From Verrucomicrobiota bacterium (GTDB lineage Bacteria; Verrucomicrobiota; Verrucomicrobiia; Opitutales; UBA2995): DNA of 61,464 nt. Below the pieces are notes generated by a model that saw only the letters and a list, made by a program, of their open reading frames with translations, was not told where the DNA came from and made no database searches. Both the position numbers and the translations under genes were made by a program. The stretch lies in assembly GCA_027622555.1 (NCBI GenBank), contig JAQBYJ010000024.1, forward strand, positions 1 to 61,464, read 5' to 3'. Below, one piece after another: positions 2,493-55,204 of this stretch; position 1 is the first letter of the stretch, and each line of letters begins with the position of its first letter.

Positions 2493-3563
2493 TTAGGCTT
2501 TGGAAATTGAAAGCCAATCCGGATTTTCTTCTGCGTGACCGGCAATTTCCTCTAAAATTTCCTCGACGCAAAAATTTGGAAACCAGCCCCATGTGTTCAA
2601 CGCACTGGAATTATCTAATACCATCCAAGGTATATCGAACTTGCGATCTTCACTTTGCTTTTCTATCTGCATGGGTTGAAAGCGTTCTGAACTCCATTCA
2701 GTAAGTTGCTTAAGCGACATTGAATTCTTAATACCTCCGCTTACGTTAATCAGGCGGGGTTTGTCCGTTTGAAGTGGTTCGGCAATCTGTTGAATGAGCA
2801 ATTTCCCTAAATCGAAGGGGTGTAAACAATCTCTTACTTGGTGCCCATCCCCGCCAAACCCAATATATTTGAGAGCTGATTTTTCAGCAAAACTGTGTAC
2901 CCAAAATGCAAAAATTCCCTGAGCCGGATGTCCGAATTGTCCGGGACCAGCCATTACTCCGCAACGGTTTATCCACACTGGGATATTAAAACTTTCACCG
3001 TATTCGAGTGCTAAATACTCCGATGCAATTTTAGTTGAGCCGTATAGAGATATTGGAGGTTTTGTATCAAAATCTTCCGAGACTCCATTCACCGAAAGTC
3101 CTGTGGGAAAGGATTGATCAGCGACTGGGATAAACGCACCCTGGGATTCTGCTACTTTCAAATTCGCAAGAGGAGAAATCGAATAGACTCTGCTTGTTGA
3201 GAGCAGGATAAAACCGGCGCCTACTTTTTTGCAGTATTCCAGCATATTGATAGTTCCCTGAAGGTTATGCTCAACCAGCTGGCGACTGCTTGTTTTACCG
3301 TCGATCCCTGCCAAGACACTTGCGTTAGCCGCAGCGTCTATCACGAAATCTACTTCCGGTAAGTTTTCAAGATCGCTGGCTTCTCGAATGTCACCGTGAA
3401 GGAAGTTAACTCCGAGTTCTTTTAGCTTGGACACGTTTAAATGACTGCCTGGTCGGATCAAGTTGTCCATTCCCCAGATTTCAACATTTTCTACGGCATT
3501 TACTATATATTTTGCTAAGGAACTTCCTACGAAGCCTGCTGCGCCAGTTATCAAAATTCTCAT
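2493..3563 (-). CDS. NAD-dependent epimerase/dehydratase, CDP-tyvelose epimerase-like (SDR)
   Basis: I place the start at the ATG at 3563, giving MRILITGAAGFVG (356 residues). The longer frame to 3638 would overlap the upstream gene and adds no recognisable domain. The N-terminal Rossmann motif GAAGFVG and the active-site pair Y174 and K178 (YGSTK) are present, with STSRVYS supplying the Ser/Thr. The run WGMDNLIRPGS is typical of CDP-paratose/tyvelose epimerase-like SDRs. It probably makes a nucleotide sugar for the glycan. The gene starts 5 bases after the end of a related SDR gene, so the two are probably co-translated. Confidence 0.85.
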   Translation of the reverse strand: MRILITGAAGFVGSSLAKYIVNAVENVEIWGMDNLIRPGSHLNVSKLKELGVNFLHGDIREASDLENLPEVDFVIDAAANASVLAGIDGKTSSRQLVEHNLQGTINMLEYCKKVGAGFILLSTSRVYSISPLANLKVAESQGAFIPVADQSFPTGLSVNGVSEDFDTKPPISLYGSTKIASEYLALEYGESFNIPVWINRCGVMAGPGQFGHPAQGIFAFWVHSFAEKSALKYIGFGGDGHQVRDCLHPFDLGKLLIQQIAEPLQTDKPRLINVSGGIKNSMSLKQLTEWSSERFQPMQIEKQSEDRKFDIPWMVLDNSSALNTWGWFPNFCVEEILEEIAGHAEENPDWLSISKA

Positions 3564-8851: not shown

Positions 8852-10948
8852 TTATAATAGGGTTTTCCTCAATTTCTCAGTTTCTTTGATGAAATACTCT
8901 TGGACTGAAAATATCTCGTTGTCCCCGGATACTTCAATGGGGATATAGTCTCCATTTGAAGTCAATTCCTTGGCGTATTTGGTATCCTTAAGGTATATTT
9001 CCAGCAGGTCGTTAATAACCCGTTTTTTTAATATGGGGTCACTCAAAGGGAATACACATTCGATTCTCCTAAAAAAGTTTCTTGGCATCCAATCGGCGCT
9101 TCCTGTGAAAACCATCGCCTCCTTTTCCCCATTTTCAAAATAATAAACTCGGCTGTGTTCGAGAAAACGGCCCAAAAGGCTTATTACCCGAATGTTTTCG
9201 CTAAGATCCTTCACGCCAGGAACCAACCCGCAAATACCACGAATAATCAGAATGATCTCTACCCCCGCAATGGAGGCTGTGTAAAGATTGTCGATGGTTT
9301 CCTGGTCGATCAAACTGTTGAGTTTGACCATTATCTTCGCAGGTTTTCCATCCCGTGCGTTTTGAGCCTCCATCCGAATTAGTCGATTGATTTCTTTATG
9401 CAGATTGAATGGCGCAACCTTTAGTATTTGAAATTTGGGTGATCTGGCAAACCCGGTGAGGGTATTAAAAAGATCGGCGATCTCCTTCGTCATTTCTTCA
9501 TGTGAAGTCATAAAGCTCAGGTCGCTATACAATTTGGCTGTTTTAGGATTGTAGTTCCCGGACCCTAGGTGGCAGTACCGTTTTAACCCCTCGGGCTCTC
9601 TTCTAACCACCAAGCAGCATTTGCAGTGAGTCTTAAGGTGGGTAAGACCATAGACAACATGCACATCCGCTTCTTCTAACTCACGCGCCCATTGAATGTT
9701 ATTGGCCTCGTCGAACCGCGCCTTCAATTCAACTAGCGCGGTGACTTGCTTCCCATTCAACGATGCTTCCTTGAGGGCTTTAATTATCGGACTGTCCCCG
9801 CTTGTCCGATACAAGGTTTGTTTAATGGCAAATACCTGCGGATCTCGAGCGGCCTGTTCAATAAATTCTACGACCGGGGTGAAAGAATCGTAAGGATGAT
9901 GAAGAAGAATATCTTCTTTGGATAGGATGTTAAAAATGGAGTCCGGCTTATTCAAAGGTGGCCTCACATAAGGAATAAAATTTTCAAATTTAAGTTCATT
10001 TCTCGGGACTATACTCTCAAAGTCCCGTAGTCTCATCATATTCAGAGGGCCGTTAATTCTGTAAACGCTTTCATCTTTTAGTCCGATTTCCTTAAGTAGC
10101 TCTGCGAGTAACCGATCCTCAATGCTATCTTCTACTTCCAATCGTACGGGATCATTTTTTCGCTGATTCCACAGTTCTTCCTCAATTTTGGTTACCAGGT
10201 TTTCTACTTCTTCTTCGTCGAAATAAAGGTCGCTATTTCTTGAGATTCTGAAGGCGTGGGCTGTTCGGATTTTATGTCCCGGAAACAAGGTGTGGGCGAA
10301 TATCTTCACAATATCGCTTAGAAATATGTATTTCAGTGTATCGTCCTTTCCCGGGTTAATTCTTACAATGCGACTTAAAATTCTTGGCACAGGAATAATC
10401 GCTTTGTGAATGGTGTCTGGATTACTCCAATTGCCTTCGACCCAAACAATTAAATTGAGCGTTTTATTTCCAATTTGCGGAAACGGATGGGTCGGATCAA
10501 TAGCGAGCGGCGTCAGGACGGGATAAACCTCTTTGTCAAAATAGTGCCTCAGCCATTTAAGATCCTTTTTTGAAAGCGTTTCAGGTGTCTTGATATCTAT
10601 TCCCTCCCTCCTCATCTCGGGAACCAGCAATTCATGCCAACATTTATATTGCTCGTCTACCTGAACACGGACTTTAGCTTGAATTAGGCTTAATTGATCT
10701 CTCGGGCTTAACCCATCGTCACTCAGCACGCTAACCTGGGAATCTGCTTGCTGCATAAGCCCGGCAACGCGAATCTCGAAAAACTCGTCAAGATTACTGC
10801 TAACAAAGGAAAGAAATTTGACGCGTTCGAGAATCGGGTATTGCTCGCTCTTCGCTTGTTCCAGGACACGATGGTTGAATGCCAACCAGCTTAACTCACG
10901 ATTGAAGTAAGGAACTTTCTTTTTTGATGATTCTGACTTAGTACCCAT
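8852..10948 (-). CDS. ppk1: Polyphosphate kinase 1
   Basis: The 698-residue protein has the full PPK1 length. The N-terminal domain starts YFNRELSWLAFNHRVLEQA and continues SSNLDEFFEIRVAGL. The catalytic phospholipase-D-like halves contain the HxK histidine in LTHLKTHCKCCLVV, with GSGNYNPKTAKLYSDL after it, and a second histidine in LEHSRVYYFENG. It polymerises the gamma-phosphate of ATP into polyphosphate, reversibly. It stands alone between the glycan cluster and htpG. A possible PhoB-type site lies in the 189-base gap upstream. Confidence 0.97.
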   Translation of the reverse strand: MGTKSESSKKKVPYFNRELSWLAFNHRVLEQAKSEQYPILERVKFLSFVSSNLDEFFEIRVAGLMQQADSQVSVLSDDGLSPRDQLSLIQAKVRVQVDEQYKCWHELLVPEMRREGIDIKTPETLSKKDLKWLRHYFDKEVYPVLTPLAIDPTHPFPQIGNKTLNLIVWVEGNWSNPDTIHKAIIPVPRILSRIVRINPGKDDTLKYIFLSDIVKIFAHTLFPGHKIRTAHAFRISRNSDLYFDEEEVENLVTKIEEELWNQRKNDPVRLEVEDSIEDRLLAELLKEIGLKDESVYRINGPLNMMRLRDFESIVPRNELKFENFIPYVRPPLNKPDSIFNILSKEDILLHHPYDSFTPVVEFIEQAARDPQVFAIKQTLYRTSGDSPIIKALKEASLNGKQVTALVELKARFDEANNIQWARELEEADVHVVYGLTHLKTHCKCCLVVRREPEGLKRYCHLGSGNYNPKTAKLYSDLSFMTSHEEMTKEIADLFNTLTGFARSPKFQILKVAPFNLHKEINRLIRMEAQNARDGKPAKIMVKLNSLIDQETIDNLYTASIAGVEIILIIRGICGLVPGVKDLSENIRVISLLGRFLEHSRVYYFENGEKEAMVFTGSADWMPRNFFRRIECVFPLSDPILKKRVINDLLEIYLKDTKYAKELTSNGDYIPIEVSGDNEIFSVQEYFIKETEKLRKTLL

Positions 10949-11099
10949 GCGATTAGAACAATATGGAGCACAAAGTTCTCAGAATAAAGAACCTTTCTTG
11001 TGACAAATCGGTTAAATCGTCTTTGTAAGGCAGCTGATCCTACAGTTTTCAAGGTGTCAGTAATAACGCTGCAACTTACTGTCAGTTCATGAAAAACAA

Positions 11100-48553: not shown

Positions 48554-49657
48554 TTACTCCCATTGGTCTGAGGAAGGTGCGGTGAAGTGGTTGAAGGTGG
48601 GCTTGCCGGATCCTTTTAATGAGTCAGCTAATCGGTGCAGATTTACCGAAACAATCTCCCCCATGGATTCGCAGACTTTGAAAGCTGAGTGTCCATAGAA
48701 TTCCGCCATGGCTGAACGTAGCTGTTTTACTTTTTCAGGCGTTGATAGCTCGGTGGCACGCATGCTTTTTAGTAAGGTCTCAAAACGGTTGTGACCAAGC
48801 TGCATCCGACGGAAAATGTGCGATTGTTCCTCTCGTTGGTACTGGAGGGACGTGGCCATGTTCAGGTGTTTGGTGCAAAAGAAAACGAGTTCATTGTTTT
48901 CTTTGAAAAATTGAGGTCGGTAAAAATTCAATCGGCCATTGTAACACTGTTGGTCGAAATCCATTGGGCGGATCATCAGCTGGATGTCTTCGAAGTCGGG
49001 CGTAATATCGACGATGAAATTGTAGGCTCGCATATCACCCAACAACCGCAAGAAACAACGTTCGTTAAACTTGACCAGTTCCTTGGCGATTCGAACGGGC
49101 TTGAGGCGTTTACTGTTTAACCATTTATCGATAAACACATCTCCGGGTATTCCCACGATATGCTCTTCCGCCAAAGTGTTGTGGTAAGTAAAATAGTGCA
49201 TCCGGTTCGGGGACAACAAATGCTCCAGTTCAAGTCCGAAGATGCGTGAAGCGTCGGCTTTCTTAATGTAGTAGTAATCCTGATTGTCGTTGTGCGAGTT
49301 CACAATCCGGATACGGAAAGGATTTGAATTGCCGAAGGTGCAAAAATCGATGCGGTCCACGTAGAGGTGTTCCATGAAACTTAGATCACCGTCCGTCTTC
49401 AGCATAGCGTAAATCTTCTTTAATCCGAAGGAGAAGAGCTTCATTTTTTCTGGAGAATAGACCACTGTCAACCACAGGGTGTCCTCGCCATCCTTGTCGT
49501 AGAGTGGCATGGCTTCCTCCCAATGTAGGAGCTGAGAATAACGAACGGGCAACTCCATATCGCGTTTGAAACGAGCCAGGTATTCGCGTAACTCCTCACC
49601 TATGGGGTAGGATGGTTTCCTGTCAGTGACGCGTCGTTGTTGGCCGATGTTACTCAT
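48554..49657 (-). CDS. Uncharacterised protein with kinase-fold signature residues
   Basis: I do not recognise this 367-residue protein by name. Its residues fit the protein-kinase/APH fold. YYYIKKADASRIF (K132/K133) resembles the ATP-binding lysine strand, and LELEHLL (E143/E145) the helix C glutamate. GDMRAYNFIVD gives D208-x4-N213 like a catalytic loop, and MDFDQQ gives D233-F-D like the metal-binding DFG. It has no signal peptide. A C-terminal helical region of about 110 residues follows. The kinase idea is inference and the substrate unknown. It is divergent from the tonB-like gene. Confidence 0.6.
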   Translation of the reverse strand: MSNIGQQRRVTDRKPSYPIGEELREYLARFKRDMELPVRYSQLLHWEEAMPLYDKDGEDTLWLTVVYSPEKMKLFSFGLKKIYAMLKTDGDLSFMEHLYVDRIDFCTFGNSNPFRIRIVNSHNDNQDYYYIKKADASRIFGLELEHLLSPNRMHYFTYHNTLAEEHIVGIPGDVFIDKWLNSKRLKPVRIAKELVKFNERCFLRLLGDMRAYNFIVDITPDFEDIQLMIRPMDFDQQCYNGRLNFYRPQFFKENNELVFFCTKHLNMATSLQYQREEQSHIFRRMQLGHNRFETLLKSMRATELSTPEKVKQLRSAMAEFYGHSAFKVCESMGEIVSVNLHRLADSLKGSGKPTFNHFTAPSSDQWE

Positions 49658-49783
49658 TATGATTCCCTCATAGAATCCGATTTCTCTCCTATGGCAAACT
49701 GGAATGCCGTTGATCTGGAATGGATCTAAGATTTAGATTTATTGGATTGATAGCCTGTTCATGGAGGACCTTTTGGCTTCTAT

Positions 49784-49811
49784 TGTAACATTATCGTAAC
49801 CTATATGTAAC
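49784..49811 (+). promoter_or_regulatory. Three TGTAAC-type direct repeats at exact 11-bp spacing
   Basis: TGTAAC at 49784, CGTAAC at 49795 and TGTAAC at 49806 lie on one face of the helix. Three tandem half-sites with 11-bp period are the classical operator form for OmpR/PhoB-family response regulators. A TAGGAAT-like -10 follows about 11 bases downstream. The array lies 112-90 bases before the first ATG of the tonB-like gene. Confidence 0.6.
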
Positions 49812-49882
49812 ATCACAGATTTAGGAATGTAGGTGATTACCTCAATGTTTACGAGGATTTAACTATAAAACTGCTTTACTTT

Positions 49883-49899
49883 TGTAACCTGTTTGTAAC
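49883..49899 (+). promoter_or_regulatory. Second TGTAAC pair, 11-bp spacing, abutting the tonB-like start
   Basis: TGTAAC at 49883 and again at 49894, with the second copy ending one base before the ATG at 49901. It has the same half-site and period as the upstream array. Bound protein here would cover the translation start region and could repress or modulate. Confidence 0.5.
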
Positions 49900-49900
49900 A

Positions 49901-50266
49901 ATGTTTGTTATGAATTCTGTAATTAAGTTAGCGGTAGTAATTACCCTCCTCTCCCCGGTAGGTCTGTTTGCGGAAGATTGCGAAGTATCCTGCTGTAAAG
50001 CGCCAACCGTTGTTAATTACTCTAAACCTGAGATTCCGGCCGATATGCTTAAATCGGGTGAAACGGCTGAAATTGTTCTTCGTTGTGCTATTGATGAAAA
50101 AGGACAATTAATCGGAGTTAAAACCTTATCAACATCCCATGATAAATTGGAAGCTGTGGTTCTCGCAGCCGTTCAACATTGGACCTTTGATGCATCCCTG
50201 GAAAAGGGTGAGCCCCAGCGAGCGACCGTTAATATACCTTTCAAATTCACAGTGGCCTCTAAGTAG
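49901..50266 (+). CDS. Secreted TonB C-terminal-domain protein
   Basis: The 121-residue protein has an N-terminal signal or anchor (SVIKLAVVITLLSPVGLFA), then directly a TonB-CTD fold: KPEIPADMLKSGETAEIVL, DEKGQLIGVKTLS, VVLAAVQHWTFDASLEKG, ending NIPFKFTV. Normal TonB has a proline-rich spacer of ~100 residues to span the periplasm; here there is none. A cysteine cluster (DCEVSCCKAP) follows the likely cleavage site. ATG at 49910 is an alternative start. It may act as an adaptor or carry out a TonB-like task for the next receptor. Confidence 0.75.
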   Translation: MFVMNSVIKLAVVITLLSPVGLFAEDCEVSCCKAPTVVNYSKPEIPADMLKSGETAEIVLRCAIDEKGQLIGVKTLSTSHDKLEAVVLAAVQHWTFDASLEKGEPQRATVNIPFKFTVASK

Positions 50267-50291
50267 CCCGTCCAAGGAATAAATCATTTTC

Positions 50292-50319
50292 AAGCACCAC
50301 CTTCGGGTGGTGCTTTTTT
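50292..50319 (+). terminator. Strong Rho-independent terminator
   Basis: AAGCACCACC and GGTGGTGCTT form a perfect 10-bp stem with a TTCG tetraloop, followed by TTTT. It ends the transcript of the tonB-like gene, so the receptor gene downstream needs its own promoter. Confidence 0.9.
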
Positions 50320-50329
50320 GTGTATTTTA

Positions 50330-50366
50330 GTTACAGCCATGTTACGTAGGTAACAATTCAGTTACA
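50330..50366. promoter_or_regulatory. TGTAAC-type repeats (inverted orientation) upstream of the receptor gene
   Basis: GTTACA at 50330, GTTACG at 50341 (11 bases on) and GTTACA at 50361 are the reverse complements of the repeats before the tonB-like gene. GGTAAC at 50349 makes a palindrome with the second copy (GTTACGTAGGTAAC). The array lies about 70-107 bases before the receptor ATG. Confidence 0.5.
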
Positions 50367-50436
50367 GCGATTGATTGTAGTTGTTTTCGGAAAATATGCC
50401 GCCCATATCCGGCCATGTTTTAACAAACGTTATCAC

Positions 50437-53343
50437 ATGGGTATGCTTAAAAATAAACGGCTTGGTTTATTTAATTCTCTATTGGGAGTTCTATTGACCA
50501 CAATAATTTCATACGGACAAAACGAGACCGGAACCATATCTGGAAAAATCATCGACAAAGATTTTGGCGATGGGTTACGAGGCGTTTTAGTAAAGGTGGA
50601 AGGGCTGGAAACAGATTTCATTTATTCCGACCTGGAAGGACGATATGTGGTGCGTAATGTCCCGATGGGTACTTACACGCTGATCTACGAAAAAAAGAAT
50701 TATCAGACAGCTCGGATCGCAGATGTCGAAGTCATCGCGTCTGAAGTATTTTCATTGGATGTTCCGCTTCAAGCCATAGGCGCTGACTTTACCCTGGATG
50801 TCTTTGAAATTACCGTCGATCAGATGGTTTCCCAGAACGTTGTTCTGCTTGCCGACCGGCAACGGTCAGCCTCACTTAGCGATGCGTTGAGCTCTGAAGA
50901 CTTTTCGCGTGCCAGTGCGGGTGATGCAGCCGAGGCCATGACAAAAATTACAGGTGTGAATATCGTCGATGGCAAATACGCGGTCGTGCGCGGCTTGGGT
51001 GACCGTTACTCAAACACCTTGATGAACGGTGCTGTTCTACCAAGTAACGATCCCAGTAAAAAGTCGGTTCAACTCGATATCATTCCCTCAGACCTTTTAG
51101 AGAAAATTGTTACCACCAAATCATTTACGCCTGACAAGCCGGGAGACTTTACGGGTGGTTCAGTAGAGATAACAACCAAGCCCTTCCCCGACGAATTCGT
51201 CCTAACGGCGAGTGTCGGGTTAGGCTTTAATGAGGCTACAGGGGAAAATATATTGGGAATTCCGGGAAGGGATATGGATTTTCTCGGCGATACGGATGAT
51301 GCCCTACCGGCAACCATTCCTCCTACACCGGGCGAGTACGCTCTGGCTACTCGTTTCAAAACCACTGATGAAGCAAAGTCATTGTTTCGGGATTTGCATC
51401 GTTCGGGATGGTATCCAGTAAGGAAAAAAGCCGACCCAAATCTTTCGTTTGGAGCCACTGTAGGGGATAGTAAATCCGTCTTCACCTCGGGTAACTTTGG
51501 CTATCTGGTCAGTTTCACCTACGACCACAACTATGATCTGATCGACAACAAGCGTTCCGAGCGCTGGATTGGTACGCCCGAAGAACTTCGGCCCAAGAAT
51601 GGATTCGATATTACAGAATCAGATGAAGAGATCAGTTGGGGAGGACTCATCAACCTCGCCTTGCTTCCTAATCCGGAGCATGAAGTTTCCTACAACTTTA
51701 TAATCAATACCAAGAGTAGCGATTCCGTTGTTTTTGGTGACAATGGGTTTGAAAATACGACTAATGTAGTTGAGCCAGGATTGCCAGTTGGATCCTTTAA
51801 TCTGCCGACGGGGAGGGATGCCGCCGCTGAGTTTTTAAATATCACCCGCTTGCAGCACTCGGTTAAGGAGTTGAACCTCCACCAATTTAAAGGGAAGCAC
51901 GTGTTTCCAGCGTTCTCCGAAATGGAGCTCAATTGGTCGGCCAATTTTTCAGAAACCTCGGAGGAAAATCCAGACAAGCGAACCTTTACAAACCTGAAAT
52001 ATGCCTATCCTGATGGAGCTGCCAATTCACTATTCCTGTCTGAGAATCCGAAATTTCCCTTCAAGTCGTATGATAACCTGGTCGACGACAAAACGAACTA
52101 CACAATCGACCTGACCTTTCCTCTCAATATTTCCGCTCTGAATTCAGGAGAGATTAAGTTGGGAGCGTTCACCTCGGAATCAGACAGAAACTCGATTGGA
52201 CGCTACTTTTCGGCGACAGGGTCCAATGGCATTGTAAGTAATACGGATTCCAAGATAGAGTTTTATCAACGCTTCGAGGAAGACGTCTGGATCGATCAAA
52301 GTTTTGATCCGGGAAATGGGAAATTCCGACCGGGGCAGGTGACCTTCATTGAGCAGACAAGTCGCCAGGGAAATGTGCAGTCCTATTCGGGAACCGAGAA
52401 AATTGATGCCTACTACCTGATGGCTGACCTCCAGTTCAAAAACAACCTCCGATTCATTTTCGGTGCCCGTAATGAAAAAACGGATATGGATGTCGCTACA
52501 GTGGATGATTTTGTCAATCAGGCGCTTCGTAACTCCGGTGCGATTGATAATGACAAGTGGCTACCCGCTTTCCATGCCGTCTATCCTCTCGGAGAAGATA
52601 AAACTCAGAATCTGAGATTCTCATACGGCAAGACGCTTGCCCGTCCTACCTTCCGGGAGTTTTCACCTTTCCGGGTGGAAGATTCGCAGAGCGGGGAAAT
52701 TTATACTGGCAATCCGGATCTGGAACTCACTTTTACCAACAACTTTGACCTGCGTTGGGAATGGTTTATCGGTGAAGTAGACTTGCTCGCATTTGGCTTC
52801 TACTACAAAGACTTCTCCAATCCAATTGTTCAAACCGTATCCAGCGGCGTAAACGCGAACCCGCTCTACTCCTGGGAAAACGCTCCGGCTGGAACCATCG
52901 CTGGTGCCGAATTTGAAGTAAGAAAATCAGTAGGAGATTTTTGGAGTGTTGGAGGAAACGTCACCTACATCGATTCCGAGATTGATCCTTTAGATATGGA
53001 TGCTTCTGGAACCATTTTTGAAGGACAACCGGAATACATTCTCAATTTTAATGTCGGTTACAACAACCCGGACAATGGTTGGGCCGCCAATGTGTTTGTT
53101 AACCATGTAGCCGAGACCTTGAGGTATATTGGCGAAACGGTTCCAAATATTTTCGAAGACGCATATTCTTCCGTCGATCTGAATGCGTCCAAATCCATCG
53201 GTCGTTGGACGATCAAGTTTACCGCCAAGAATGTCACAGATCAACGCCGACAATTCTTCTACGACGGCATCAATGAAAAACCGGTGTATGAATCCTGGAA
53301 ACCAGGTCCGTCCTACAGTCTTAGCGCCTCCTACCGGCACTAA
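50437..53343 (+). CDS. TonB-dependent outer-membrane receptor with CarboxypepD_reg-like domain
   Basis: I place the start at the ATG at 50437 (MGMLKNKRLG), giving 968 residues with a signal peptide ending near SYGQ. A CarboxypepD_reg-like domain follows (GTISGKIIDKDFGDGLRGV to about residue 115), a probable TonB box (DVFEITVDQ), the plug (ASAGDAAEAMTKITGVNIV, VRGLGDRYSNTLMNGAVLP, GGSVEITTK) and a barrel to the end (YSLSASYRH). The last residue is His, not the usual Phe. It imports a large or scarce solute across the outer membrane. The beta-helix gene follows after 25 bases. Confidence 0.93.
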   Translation: MGMLKNKRLGLFNSLLGVLLTTIISYGQNETGTISGKIIDKDFGDGLRGVLVKVEGLETDFIYSDLEGRYVVRNVPMGTYTLIYEKKNYQTARIADVEVIASEVFSLDVPLQAIGADFTLDVFEITVDQMVSQNVVLLADRQRSASLSDALSSEDFSRASAGDAAEAMTKITGVNIVDGKYAVVRGLGDRYSNTLMNGAVLPSNDPSKKSVQLDIIPSDLLEKIVTTKSFTPDKPGDFTGGSVEITTKPFPDEFVLTASVGLGFNEATGENILGIPGRDMDFLGDTDDALPATIPPTPGEYALATRFKTTDEAKSLFRDLHRSGWYPVRKKADPNLSFGATVGDSKSVFTSGNFGYLVSFTYDHNYDLIDNKRSERWIGTPEELRPKNGFDITESDEEISWGGLINLALLPNPEHEVSYNFIINTKSSDSVVFGDNGFENTTNVVEPGLPVGSFNLPTGRDAAAEFLNITRLQHSVKELNLHQFKGKHVFPAFSEMELNWSANFSETSEENPDKRTFTNLKYAYPDGAANSLFLSENPKFPFKSYDNLVDDKTNYTIDLTFPLNISALNSGEIKLGAFTSESDRNSIGRYFSATGSNGIVSNTDSKIEFYQRFEEDVWIDQSFDPGNGKFRPGQVTFIEQTSRQGNVQSYSGTEKIDAYYLMADLQFKNNLRFIFGARNEKTDMDVATVDDFVNQALRNSGAIDNDKWLPAFHAVYPLGEDKTQNLRFSYGKTLARPTFREFSPFRVEDSQSGEIYTGNPDLELTFTNNFDLRWEWFIGEVDLLAFGFYYKDFSNPIVQTVSSGVNANPLYSWENAPAGTIAGAEFEVRKSVGDFWSVGGNVTYIDSEIDPLDMDASGTIFEGQPEYILNFNVGYNNPDNGWAANVFVNHVAETLRYIGETVPNIFEDAYSSVDLNASKSIGRWTIKFTAKNVTDQRRQFFYDGINEKPVYESWKPGPSYSLSASYRH

Positions 53344-53368: not shown

Positions 53369-55204
53369 ATGAAACCCATAAAAATAAAAATGAAAATGAA
53401 AAATCTGATTAGTATCCTAGCAACGATGGCAGTGATGTCATCCGTATACGCCGCAGATGTCCCAGTGACGGCGAATATAACTACAAACACCACTTGGACT
53501 GCAGACAATGAATACCTCCTCGGACAACCTGTTTTTGTTACCGATGAAGCCATTCTAACCATTGAACCTGGCACTAGAATTCTCGCATTTGAAGATATTG
53601 CGAACCAGACCTTTGGATCACTCATCATCACTCGCGGTTGCCAAATAATCGCTGATGGAACTCCGAGAGCACCGATCGTTTTCACTGCTTTGGCAGAGCG
53701 TGATGGAGTTGAAACGGCGCCTGGCGTATTTCGCGACATAGAAATCACAGACGTTAGTCTTTGGGGCGGCGTCATTCTTCTCGGTAATGCCGTAGTCAAT
53801 GGTCCAGGAAACATCCTCATTGATCCTACCAACACCGCGAACCCACCTACCTTTGAGGTTGAAGGTTTTCCAGCCGGTTCTTCAGATCTGATCACCTACG
53901 GTGGTATCGATGACACCGATAACTCAGGAGTTCTTCGCTTCGTATCCATTCGTTATGGTGGATTCGAGTTTGCTGAAGACGAAGAAATCAACGGACTTAC
54001 TTTGGGGGCTGTTGGAAGCGGAACAACCATCGAGTTCGTTGAAGTATTCAACAATTCGGATGACGGAGTTGAGTTCTTTGGCGGCACCGTAAACACCAAG
54101 TTCATGGTTATGGCCTTCAACGAAGACGAGTCGTTTGACTCCGACCAGGGATGGCGTGGTAAAAACCAATTTTGGTTCGCCATTCAAAAAGATGTTGGAA
54201 ACGGTTCAAATTATGGATCCGAACAAGATGGTGGTGACGGAGATGACAAAACGCTCATGCCTTTTTCCACGCCTATGATTGCTAACGCCACTTTCATCGG
54301 TTCTGGCGTTGGAGGATCTAATCCTCAAGACAACGCGGCACTTAGATGGAAAGAAAATGCTGCCCCCAGCTATTACAACTCTCTGTTCACTGATTTCAAA
54401 AAATATGTCATCCGTATGGACGATGCCGATACCGAGGCTCAATACACGGCCGGGCGTAGTGCGATCGAAGGTTCTGTTTTCGGAAACTTCGGAACTTGGG
54501 ACGGCACGATTAATTCTCTCACTAAAGGCAGCAAAGCGGCTGAAGTGTCTATTCTTACAGGAACGAACAGCTCCAACACCGCGATTGGTGATGCGATTGT
54601 TGTGGAATCCATTTCACGGGAAGCAGATAGCGGTGGGCTCGATCCTCGTGTGTTGGACTTATCTAGCCCAGTCTATGACATGGCAACGATTATGGATCTT
54701 CCAGACGACCCCTTTTACTCTGTCGTAGACCACAAAGGAGCGGTTGGAACCTTCAACTGGATGAAAGGTTGGACTGCTCTTGACGAAAAGGGTTACTTGG
54801 CGACTTCTGCTGAAGACCTTAAGCTTGATGCAGAATTCTTAAACACTTCCACGCGTGCTCTGATTGGAGTAGGTCCTGGTGAGGAAATGAACCTAGGGTT
54901 CGTTATCGGCGGCACGGAGCCTCAGACGGTATATGTCACTGCGAAGGGTCCAAGTCTTCCCGTTCCTACGCCTTTGGATGACCCCAAGCTGACTCTTTTT
55001 TCTGGTGGTACTCCGATCGAAGTGAACTTCGCATGGAAAGATTCTCCTAATCGTGGGTTGATCGAAGCGACAACCTTGCCTCCTTCCGACGATTTGGAAG
55101 CAGCCATCGTAGCCACGCTTCCTCCCGGTTCCTATACTGCTCTCATTGAAAGCGAAAGCGGCAACGTAGGAATCGCGATTGGCGAAGTATTTATTTATCG
55201 TTAA
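53369..55204 (+). CDS. Secreted beta-helix-type surface protein, probable receptor partner
   Basis: I take the ATG at 53369, giving 611 residues; a longer frame to 53183 runs back into the receptor gene. A signal peptide (NLISILATMAVMSSVYA) is followed by WTADNEYLLGQPVFV, AILTIEPGTRILAFED and RGCQIIADGTPRAPIVFTA, typical of right-handed beta-helix proteins. An Asp/Gly-rich middle has NNSDDGVEFFGG and DNAALRWKENA. The C-terminal ~100 residues (AKGPSLPVPTPLDDPKLTLF to IGEVFIYR) look like a domain common on verrucomicrobial surface proteins. Tight linkage suggests it works with the receptor, perhaps in substrate capture. Confidence 0.8.
   Translation: MKPIKIKMKMKNLISILATMAVMSSVYAADVPVTANITTNTTWTADNEYLLGQPVFVTDEAILTIEPGTRILAFEDIANQTFGSLIITRGCQIIADGTPRAPIVFTALAERDGVETAPGVFRDIEITDVSLWGGVILLGNAVVNGPGNILIDPTNTANPPTFEVEGFPAGSSDLITYGGIDDTDNSGVLRFVSIRYGGFEFAEDEEINGLTLGAVGSGTTIEFVEVFNNSDDGVEFFGGTVNTKFMVMAFNEDESFDSDQGWRGKNQFWFAIQKDVGNGSNYGSEQDGGDGDDKTLMPFSTPMIANATFIGSGVGGSNPQDNAALRWKENAAPSYYNSLFTDFKKYVIRMDDADTEAQYTAGRSAIEGSVFGNFGTWDGTINSLTKGSKAAEVSILTGTNSSNTAIGDAIVVESISREADSGGLDPRVLDLSSPVYDMATIMDLPDDPFYSVVDHKGAVGTFNWMKGWTALDEKGYLATSAEDLKLDAEFLNTSTRALIGVGPGEEMNLGFVIGGTEPQTVYVTAKGPSLPVPTPLDDPKLTLFSGGTPIEVNFAWKDSPNRGLIEATTLPPSDDLEAAIVATLPPGSYTALIESESGNVGIAIGEVFIYR

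Follow-up and report, generated by a model that had tools for sequence, protein, structure and literature searches.

The repeats that precede a tonB-like gene and a TonB-dependent receptor gene in a bacterium of the order Opitutales (Verrucomicrobiota) are very probably docking sites for the phosphate-starvation regulator. They lie in the window, by which we mean the whole stretch of 61,464 nucleotides that was analysed, corresponding to contig C24 of a genome (G000) of 6,017,364 bases in 238 contigs. In the reading that we favour, and that we consider highly likely to be correct, the arrays are Pho boxes of the Opitutales lineage, bound by the PhoB protein of the pst operon, and would raise outer-membrane uptake together with the phosphate importer. 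PhoB control of the locus is well supported by the comparison of sequences, from which we infer that PhoB binds the arrays, that this binding activates and that the cargo of the receptor is a phosphorus compound. The elements of the locus are the following.

49784..49812, + strand: array A, TGTAACA / CGTAACC / TGTAACA, three 11-bp units forming a Pho-box-like tandem 5′ of the tonB-like gene
49883..49900, + strand: array B, units TGTAACC / TGTAACA, its end 9 bp 5′ of the probable tonB start codon
49910..50266, + strand: tonB-like gene, an apparent signal peptide (by eye) followed directly by a TonB C-terminal domain (PF03544, E 1.2e-10)
50292..50319, + strand: hairpin plus T run separating the tonB-like and receptor genes, a probable terminator read from the sequence, similar in G004
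50329..50346, - strand: first half of the receptor operator, pair CGTAACA-N4-TGTAACT
50349..50366, + strand: pair GGTAACA-N4-AGTTACA, the other half of the receptor operator, in back-to-back orientation to the first
50381..50409, + strand: likely receptor promoter, TTGTTT-17-CATATC, its start 51 bp downstream of where the first core begins
50437..53343, + strand: TonB-dependent receptor (PF00593, PF13620, PF07715), with an N-terminal carboxypeptidase-regulatory-like domain; TIGR01782 below its cut-off
53390..55204, + strand: secreted-type protein of 604 aa, with a predicted parallel beta-helix and a C-terminal beta-sandwich, candidate receptor partner

The arrays are read directly from the letters. 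A preliminary description of this DNA had listed three TGTAAC repeats at 49784, 49795 and 49806, a pair at 49883 and 49894 and the inverted word at 50330, 50341 and 50361, and had described the spacing as an exact 11-base phase. The pair is exact in both words and positions, and the three repeats are correctly placed, with TGTAAC at 49784 and 49806 and the deviating word CGTAAC at 49795. The coordinates of the inverted sites also hold, with GTTACA at 50330 and GTTACG, one mismatch away, at 50341. These two cores keep the 11-base phase, which is broken at 50361, a site lying 20 bases from 50341 and hence at neither 11 nor 22. A core GTAACA at 50350, absent from the earlier list, completes the receptor array, whose GTNAC-like cores stand at 50330, 50341, 50350 and 50361, in steps of 11-9-11. 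The description of both flanking genes as TonB-linked was borne out by their domains, one encoding the TonB C-terminal domain (E 1.2e-10) and the other a TonB-dependent receptor.

The non-randomness of the spacing, which had also been proposed, was confirmed by counting. Specifically, five TGTAAC-N5-TGTAAC pairs with at most one mismatch are found in 583 bp of the window against 0.18 expected, and none of 100 shuffles reaches five pairs, the maximum being two. Single TGTAAC words in the window are at background (21 vs 19.4 expected). The whole genome holds 13 pairs with at most one mismatch, five of them within the window locus and eight elsewhere, against 18 for the reversed control pattern; in other words, the pair motif is clustered locally, without enrichment over the genome. 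A genome-wide regulon of TGTAAC pairs was looked for and not found; five of the eight pairs outside the window lie within long reading frames. The other three comprise a pair directly 5′ of pstS (C15:31465-31481), one before a gene for an 86-aa antitoxin-like protein (by eye) and an ambiguous one, so that, besides the window locus, a clear meaning attaches to the pstS pair only. The suggested genome scan for 11-bp pairs has given one match before a phosphate gene, and no genome-wide enrichment.

With the pair before pstS, the motif also precedes the pst operon of this genome, as is expected of a Pho box. This operon, as assigned by position and Pfam domains, has the order pstS-pstC-pstA-pstB-phoU-phoB-phoR. 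Its phoB-type gene, next to one for a phoR-type kinase, encodes a receiver and a winged helix, which is the composition expected of a PhoB protein, and the product is the best match of the genome to the PhoB profile, with 227 bits. No candidate of the genome reaches the curated cut-off of that profile (TIGR02154, 296 bits), a cut-off passed in only 2 of 12 control genomes in which the profile matches. Alignments to the PhoB profile, 226 positions long, extend to position 224 or 225 for five of the genome's response regulators. The operon regulator has the recognition helix RTVDTHVRRLRE, which closely resembles the helix RTVDVHIRRLRK of E. coli PhoB.

Arrays of this type also stand before pstS in other genomes of the order. 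An exploratory survey searched 32 pstS-like loci for three-unit arrays, each compared with 200 mononucleotide shuffles, using a scoring scheme made by hand after the arrays of the genus were known. At 11 loci, including five of the seven in the family, the array was matched by none of the 200 shuffles. The remaining two family loci gave p 0.03 (G001) and no array (G003), and the search of G005 for pstS returned no match; over the order, 18 of the 32 loci are without a significant array (p >= 0.05). Ten of the 14 promoters with p<0.05 (own, G004, G007, G006, G002, G001, G038, G053, G030 and G061) were taken further; they are a selection, from which L071, L077, L078 and L080 were omitted in spite of p<0.05. 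The ten promoters align gap-free over 56 columns, in which the units are spaced 11-11-11 and end 9 bp 5′ of the -10 box, that is, of a common TA-rich box (TATACA, TATAAA, TATCTT, TAGTAT) starting 9 bp past the last unit. Pho boxes of E. coli end about 10 bp before the -10 box. The pstS units alternate between A and C at position 4, and the same alternation is found in the first pair of the receptor.

The match between the window arrays and the pstS promoters emerges from models built on the latter. A sequence-only profile, R1, was made from the ten pstS promoters of the order, with no window sequence included. On the window alone it returned a single match, array A (E 1.6e-5). On the genome, up to E 10, it returned pstS (1.2e-10, a training member), array A (0.0016, 49780-49823) and a site on contig C157 (0.34); 150 of 859 first-look candidates were scored, and these E-values are rough. 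The third match precedes a dehydrogenase-like gene (by eye) with no phosphate link and was taken as chance. Over the eight family genomes, the strongest R1 matches were six pstS promoters, all of them training members, followed by array A and, in G006, by a site preceding a porin-like gene. That site (L146, contig C350 of G006, about 3193-3271) consists of several Pho-like units, and the porin-like gene that it precedes adjoins pstS.

A matrix of the 7-mer unit, derived from the same promoters, ranks the arrays of the preliminary description 1 to 4 among 122,894 pair positions of the window. The minus-strand pair of the receptor is the top-scoring pair (17.4 bits), array B is the second-best pair (16.8 bits) and array A is the best triple (26.7 bits). 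The pair ranked fifth lies before ppk. Here a Pho-like pair, TTTAACC-N4-TGTCACA, stands at 10999-11016 on the minus strand, 9 bp before a CTTTAT box and upstream of ppk (8852-10948, minus strand); among the relatives, a weaker similar pair was found in G003 and none in G004, G007, G002 and G006.

The spacing of the receptor array is conserved in the family wherever the gene was found. A receptor orthologue is present in five of the eight family genomes, namely our own, G004 (80% identity), G006 (73%), G002 and G001 (both 61%), and in all five the cores lie at 0, 11, 20 and 31. Core 3 reads GCAACG in G004 and G006, and core 4 reads GAAACA in G002 and G001. Read on the minus strand, the first pair of these orthologues is CGT[A/C]AC-N5-[C/T]GTAAC. 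All five further share TTGTTTT from position 51 and, after a spacer of 17 bp following TTGTTT, the box CATAYC (CATACC in G006). The tonB-like gene adjoins the receptor in our genome and in G004 (61% identity), and blastp gave no match to a tonB-like homologue at the G006 and G002 receptor loci. G004 retains both tonB arrays, its array A having two units rather than three, and the distance from the start of the last unit of array A to the first unit of array B is 77 bp in both genomes (867 to 944 in our own, 719 to 796 in G004).

Across the order, 34 of 177 genomes gave a match to the receptor at 1e-30, and loci were taken from 19 of the 33 other genomes, chosen for the best scores together with some lower ones. 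At every one of the 19, a homologue of the 604-aa protein comes directly after the receptor homologue. The upstream regions were scored from -250 to +60 of the most upstream start; of the 16 extra-family loci, 10 reach p<0.01 and 14 reach p<0.05. Taking all 20 loci together, 15 out of 1004 other tiles equal or exceed the receptor region of their own locus in score. In nine of the 16 extra-family regions GTNAC pairs at 11 bp are present, against at most one region for each of the other 15 palindromic 5-mers; GTNAC cores of the same regions also form nine pairs each at 19-20 and at 30-31 bp. The arrays are thus kept before the orthologous receptors of 5/5 family genomes having the gene and before many homologues elsewhere in the order, which answers the doubt, raised in the preliminary description, that they might not be conserved.

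The gene context of the homologues also includes phosphate genes. In G038 and G053 divergent pstSCA genes lie near the receptor pair, in G038 with a gene of the phosphate-porin type (PF07396) in between and in G053 with a gene in the corresponding place that is porin-like by placement. In G037, phoB/phoR-like genes are divergent from the receptor, and in G125 two PstS-like genes follow the receptor pair. Most of the 19 loci show no evident phosphate gene within the examined stretch, and Pho-like arrays are commoner at the receptor loci than phosphate gene neighbours. In two relatives from Myxococcota (L047 and L048) the receptor and the partner are present, with a PhoB/PhoR-like pair also nearby in L047, and neither locus has a high-scoring array of the Pho-like type.

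As a control, other TonB receptors of the family were scored, nine of 18 loci being testable. Six of the nine are without a significant array and three reach p<0.01 (L022, L023 and L025), with the high score of L025 falling inside its own coding start. L022 (G004) and L023 (G006) belong to a second type of TonB receptor and carry Pho-like arrays about 75 bp upstream; they may represent a second phosphate-linked receptor. By tblastn, no gene for a beta-helix partner was found near either of them in the examined stretches. A further observation concerns a locus of our genome, L030, where about 69 bases at the end of contig C173 equal the leader of the window receptor (about 50413-50481, by eye) and are followed by a different TonB receptor, which reflects either an assembly chimera or a duplicated leader.

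Some features of the locus itself deserve attention. The tonB-like protein seemingly consists of a signal peptide and a TonB C-terminal domain alone, without a proline-rich stretch. Upstream of array A, a gene for a 367-aa protein (48554-49657, minus strand) gave no Pfam match at E 0.001 and is kept at this place in G004 and G006 (88% and 83% identity). The structure of the 604-aa protein was predicted with confidence (mean pLDDT 87.8), its fold class being taken from one model, and by position and fold class the protein is predicted to be a receptor partner of the ElpS/FII kind. A fold search gave weak matches only (tailspike beta-helices, with a TM of about 0.2, and small sandwich domains), and consequently no enzyme function is claimed for it.

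On these grounds a mechanism can be proposed. The units would be tandem 11-bp elements of the form [C/T]GTNACA, and their ligand would be PhoB, the response regulator whose gene stands towards the end of the pst operon, in its phosphorylated form. Under phosphate shortage PhoB would be phosphorylated by PhoR, and its dimers would occupy the units upstream of pstS, of the tonB-like gene and of the receptor gene and recruit RNA polymerase there. The receptor, its secreted beta-helix partner and an additional TonB domain would consequently rise together with the inner-membrane phosphate importer. The idea that the tonB-like and receptor genes belong to one regulon is supported in the sequence by the Pho-like arrays found before both. 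The assignment to a PhoB/OmpR-type operator was likewise strengthened, by the pstS pair, the orthologue arrays and the finding of array A with a profile made from pstS promoters only.

The geometry of the sites gives indications on how each of them might work. At least two direct 11-bp units with a conserved 7-mer, as required of a Pho box, are present throughout arrays A and B and, in the receptor array, within each pair, the neighbouring cores of the two pairs being 9 bp apart. Array A resembles the pstS promoters up to the -10 region, where the box is weak (TAGGAA), and none convincing is found 9 bp on in G004. Array B, 9 bp from the start codon, may serve repression or be part of a second promoter. 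With a probable terminator 5′ of it, the receptor gene needs a promoter of its own; since this promoter has its own -35 and -10 downstream of the operator, the activator probably acts from upstream, the operator lying about 50 to 87 bp upstream of the transcription start implied by the -10. A more specific proposal is that this phosphate-linked TonB receptor of Opitutales is under its own composite Pho operator, in which two back-to-back PhoB pairs, spaced 11-9-11 and placed roughly on one face of the helix, lie upstream of a promoter with its own -35. We put this forward tentatively, as a possibility that we judge slightly more doubtful than even. If true, it would imply either that the orientation of the boxes is immaterial to activation or that two divergent promoters are controlled jointly.

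Other explanations of the arrays have to be weighed against PhoB-mediated activation. That a short word has clustered by chance in AT-rich intergenic DNA could be argued from the background frequency of single TGTAAC words and from the lack of genome-wide enrichment of pairs; we hold it to be extremely improbable and reject it on the shuffles, none of whose 100 replicates reaches five pairs, on the identical spacing in 5/5 family orthologues and on the recovery of the arrays by pstS-trained models. A more serious concern is the identity of the protein, as the window arrays might be bound by another OmpR/PhoB-family regulator of the same genome. TGTNAC-like direct repeats at 11 bp are recognised by members of this family, as reported for WalR/VicR (TGTWAH-N5-TGTWAH, PMC4168254), and TGTAAC-N5-TGTAAC agrees letter by letter with the WalR consensus given there (PMC4168254). 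Moreover, the genome has five response regulators whose match to the PhoB profile runs almost end to end, and the geometry of the receptor array is unlike that of pstS. Against this, the motif recurs before the pstS genes of the family, down to the A/C alternation at position 4, and several genomes have pst, phoBR-like or phosphate-porin genes in the vicinity of the receptor homologue, so that we regard a different regulator as quite unlikely.

Also unlikely, in our judgment, though not as much so, is repression by PhoB or a relative, exerted at arrays A and B or at the minus-strand half of the receptor operator. PhoB is described as a dual regulator according to site position (PMC10294691), 9 bp separate the end of array B from the tonB start codon, and the best-scoring half of the receptor operator faces away from the receptor. 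These considerations are countered by the match of array A to the pstS promoters up to the -10 region and by the induction at low phosphate reported for a receptor/partner pair of the same layout in Flavobacterium (PMC8115612), the likeness being one of layout.

Should activation by PhoB be right, a readable Pho-box code would become available for Opitutales, a poorly studied group of Verrucomicrobiota, and phosphate-starvation genes could be called there from sequence. An orphan TonB receptor would gain a likely substrate class, phosphorus compounds, and the low-phosphate layout of receptor and beta-helix protein known from Flavobacterium and Caulobacter would appear to occur, with its operators, in another phylum. 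The arrays very probably make an outer-membrane uptake receptor, together with its partner proteins, part of the response to phosphate starvation in this little-known order.

In comparison with known systems, the Pho box is described as a direct repeat of 11-bp units with seven conserved and four less conserved bases (PMC4415409), and direct 11-bp units before pstS are what the Opitutales arrays have in common with the E. coli box. They differ from it in a core that is mostly TGTAACA rather than CTGTCAT and, at the receptor, in the 11-9-11 steps and the back-to-back pairs. The preliminary description had considered a lineage-specific Pho box, set apart from the standard one. The first part of this idea agrees with the TGTAAC-type box before the genome's own pstS; the supposed distance from the standard box does not stand, as the E. 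coli PhoB sites reported from ChIP-seq include TGTAACCCGTATGTAACA at mglB (PMC10294691), and the TGTAAC pair falls in the known range of such sites (PMC10294691). Half-site and spacing are also the same as in the WalR/VicR box TGTWAH-N5-TGTWAH, which, unlike the window motif with its occurrence before pstS, is described in the cited text for Bacillus, Staphylococcus and Streptococcus (PMC4168254). Among the literature matches listed, no Pho box of the Opitutales lineage is described. Predicted Pho boxes are reported for plcP clusters of marine bacteria, with Verrucomicrobia among the clades named (PMC4796936), and a predicted verrucomicrobial Pho box may thus already be in print in that source.

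As for the gene layout, the phoBR cluster of Flavobacterium johnsoniae includes the TonB-dependent transporter Fjoh_0545, the lipoprotein FII Fjoh_0546 (IPR011050) and OprP (PF07396), and low phosphate strongly induces Fjoh_0545 and Fjoh_0546, OprP itself not being induced (PMC8115612). The window locus shares with Fjoh_0545/0546 the succession of a receptor and an exported protein of the beta-helix class, a likeness of layout; it belongs to another phylum, and the cited passages of PMC8115612 do not mention a Pho box for Flavobacterium. In Caulobacter, whose PhoB regulon contains TonB receptors (PMC11208175), Cc0170 (ElpS) is made under phosphate starvation and adjoins the receptor Cc0171, reported as constitutive (PMC2996285). 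Here too a receptor gene lies beside a gene for a secreted protein, compared again by layout, whereas the Cc0171/ElpS genes, unlike the window locus, lie beside type II secretion genes (PMC2996285). The kind of operator is therefore known and the gene layout resembles known ones, and what is new is the Opitutales setting, the TGTAAC-type Pho box and the 11-9-11 operator of the receptor.
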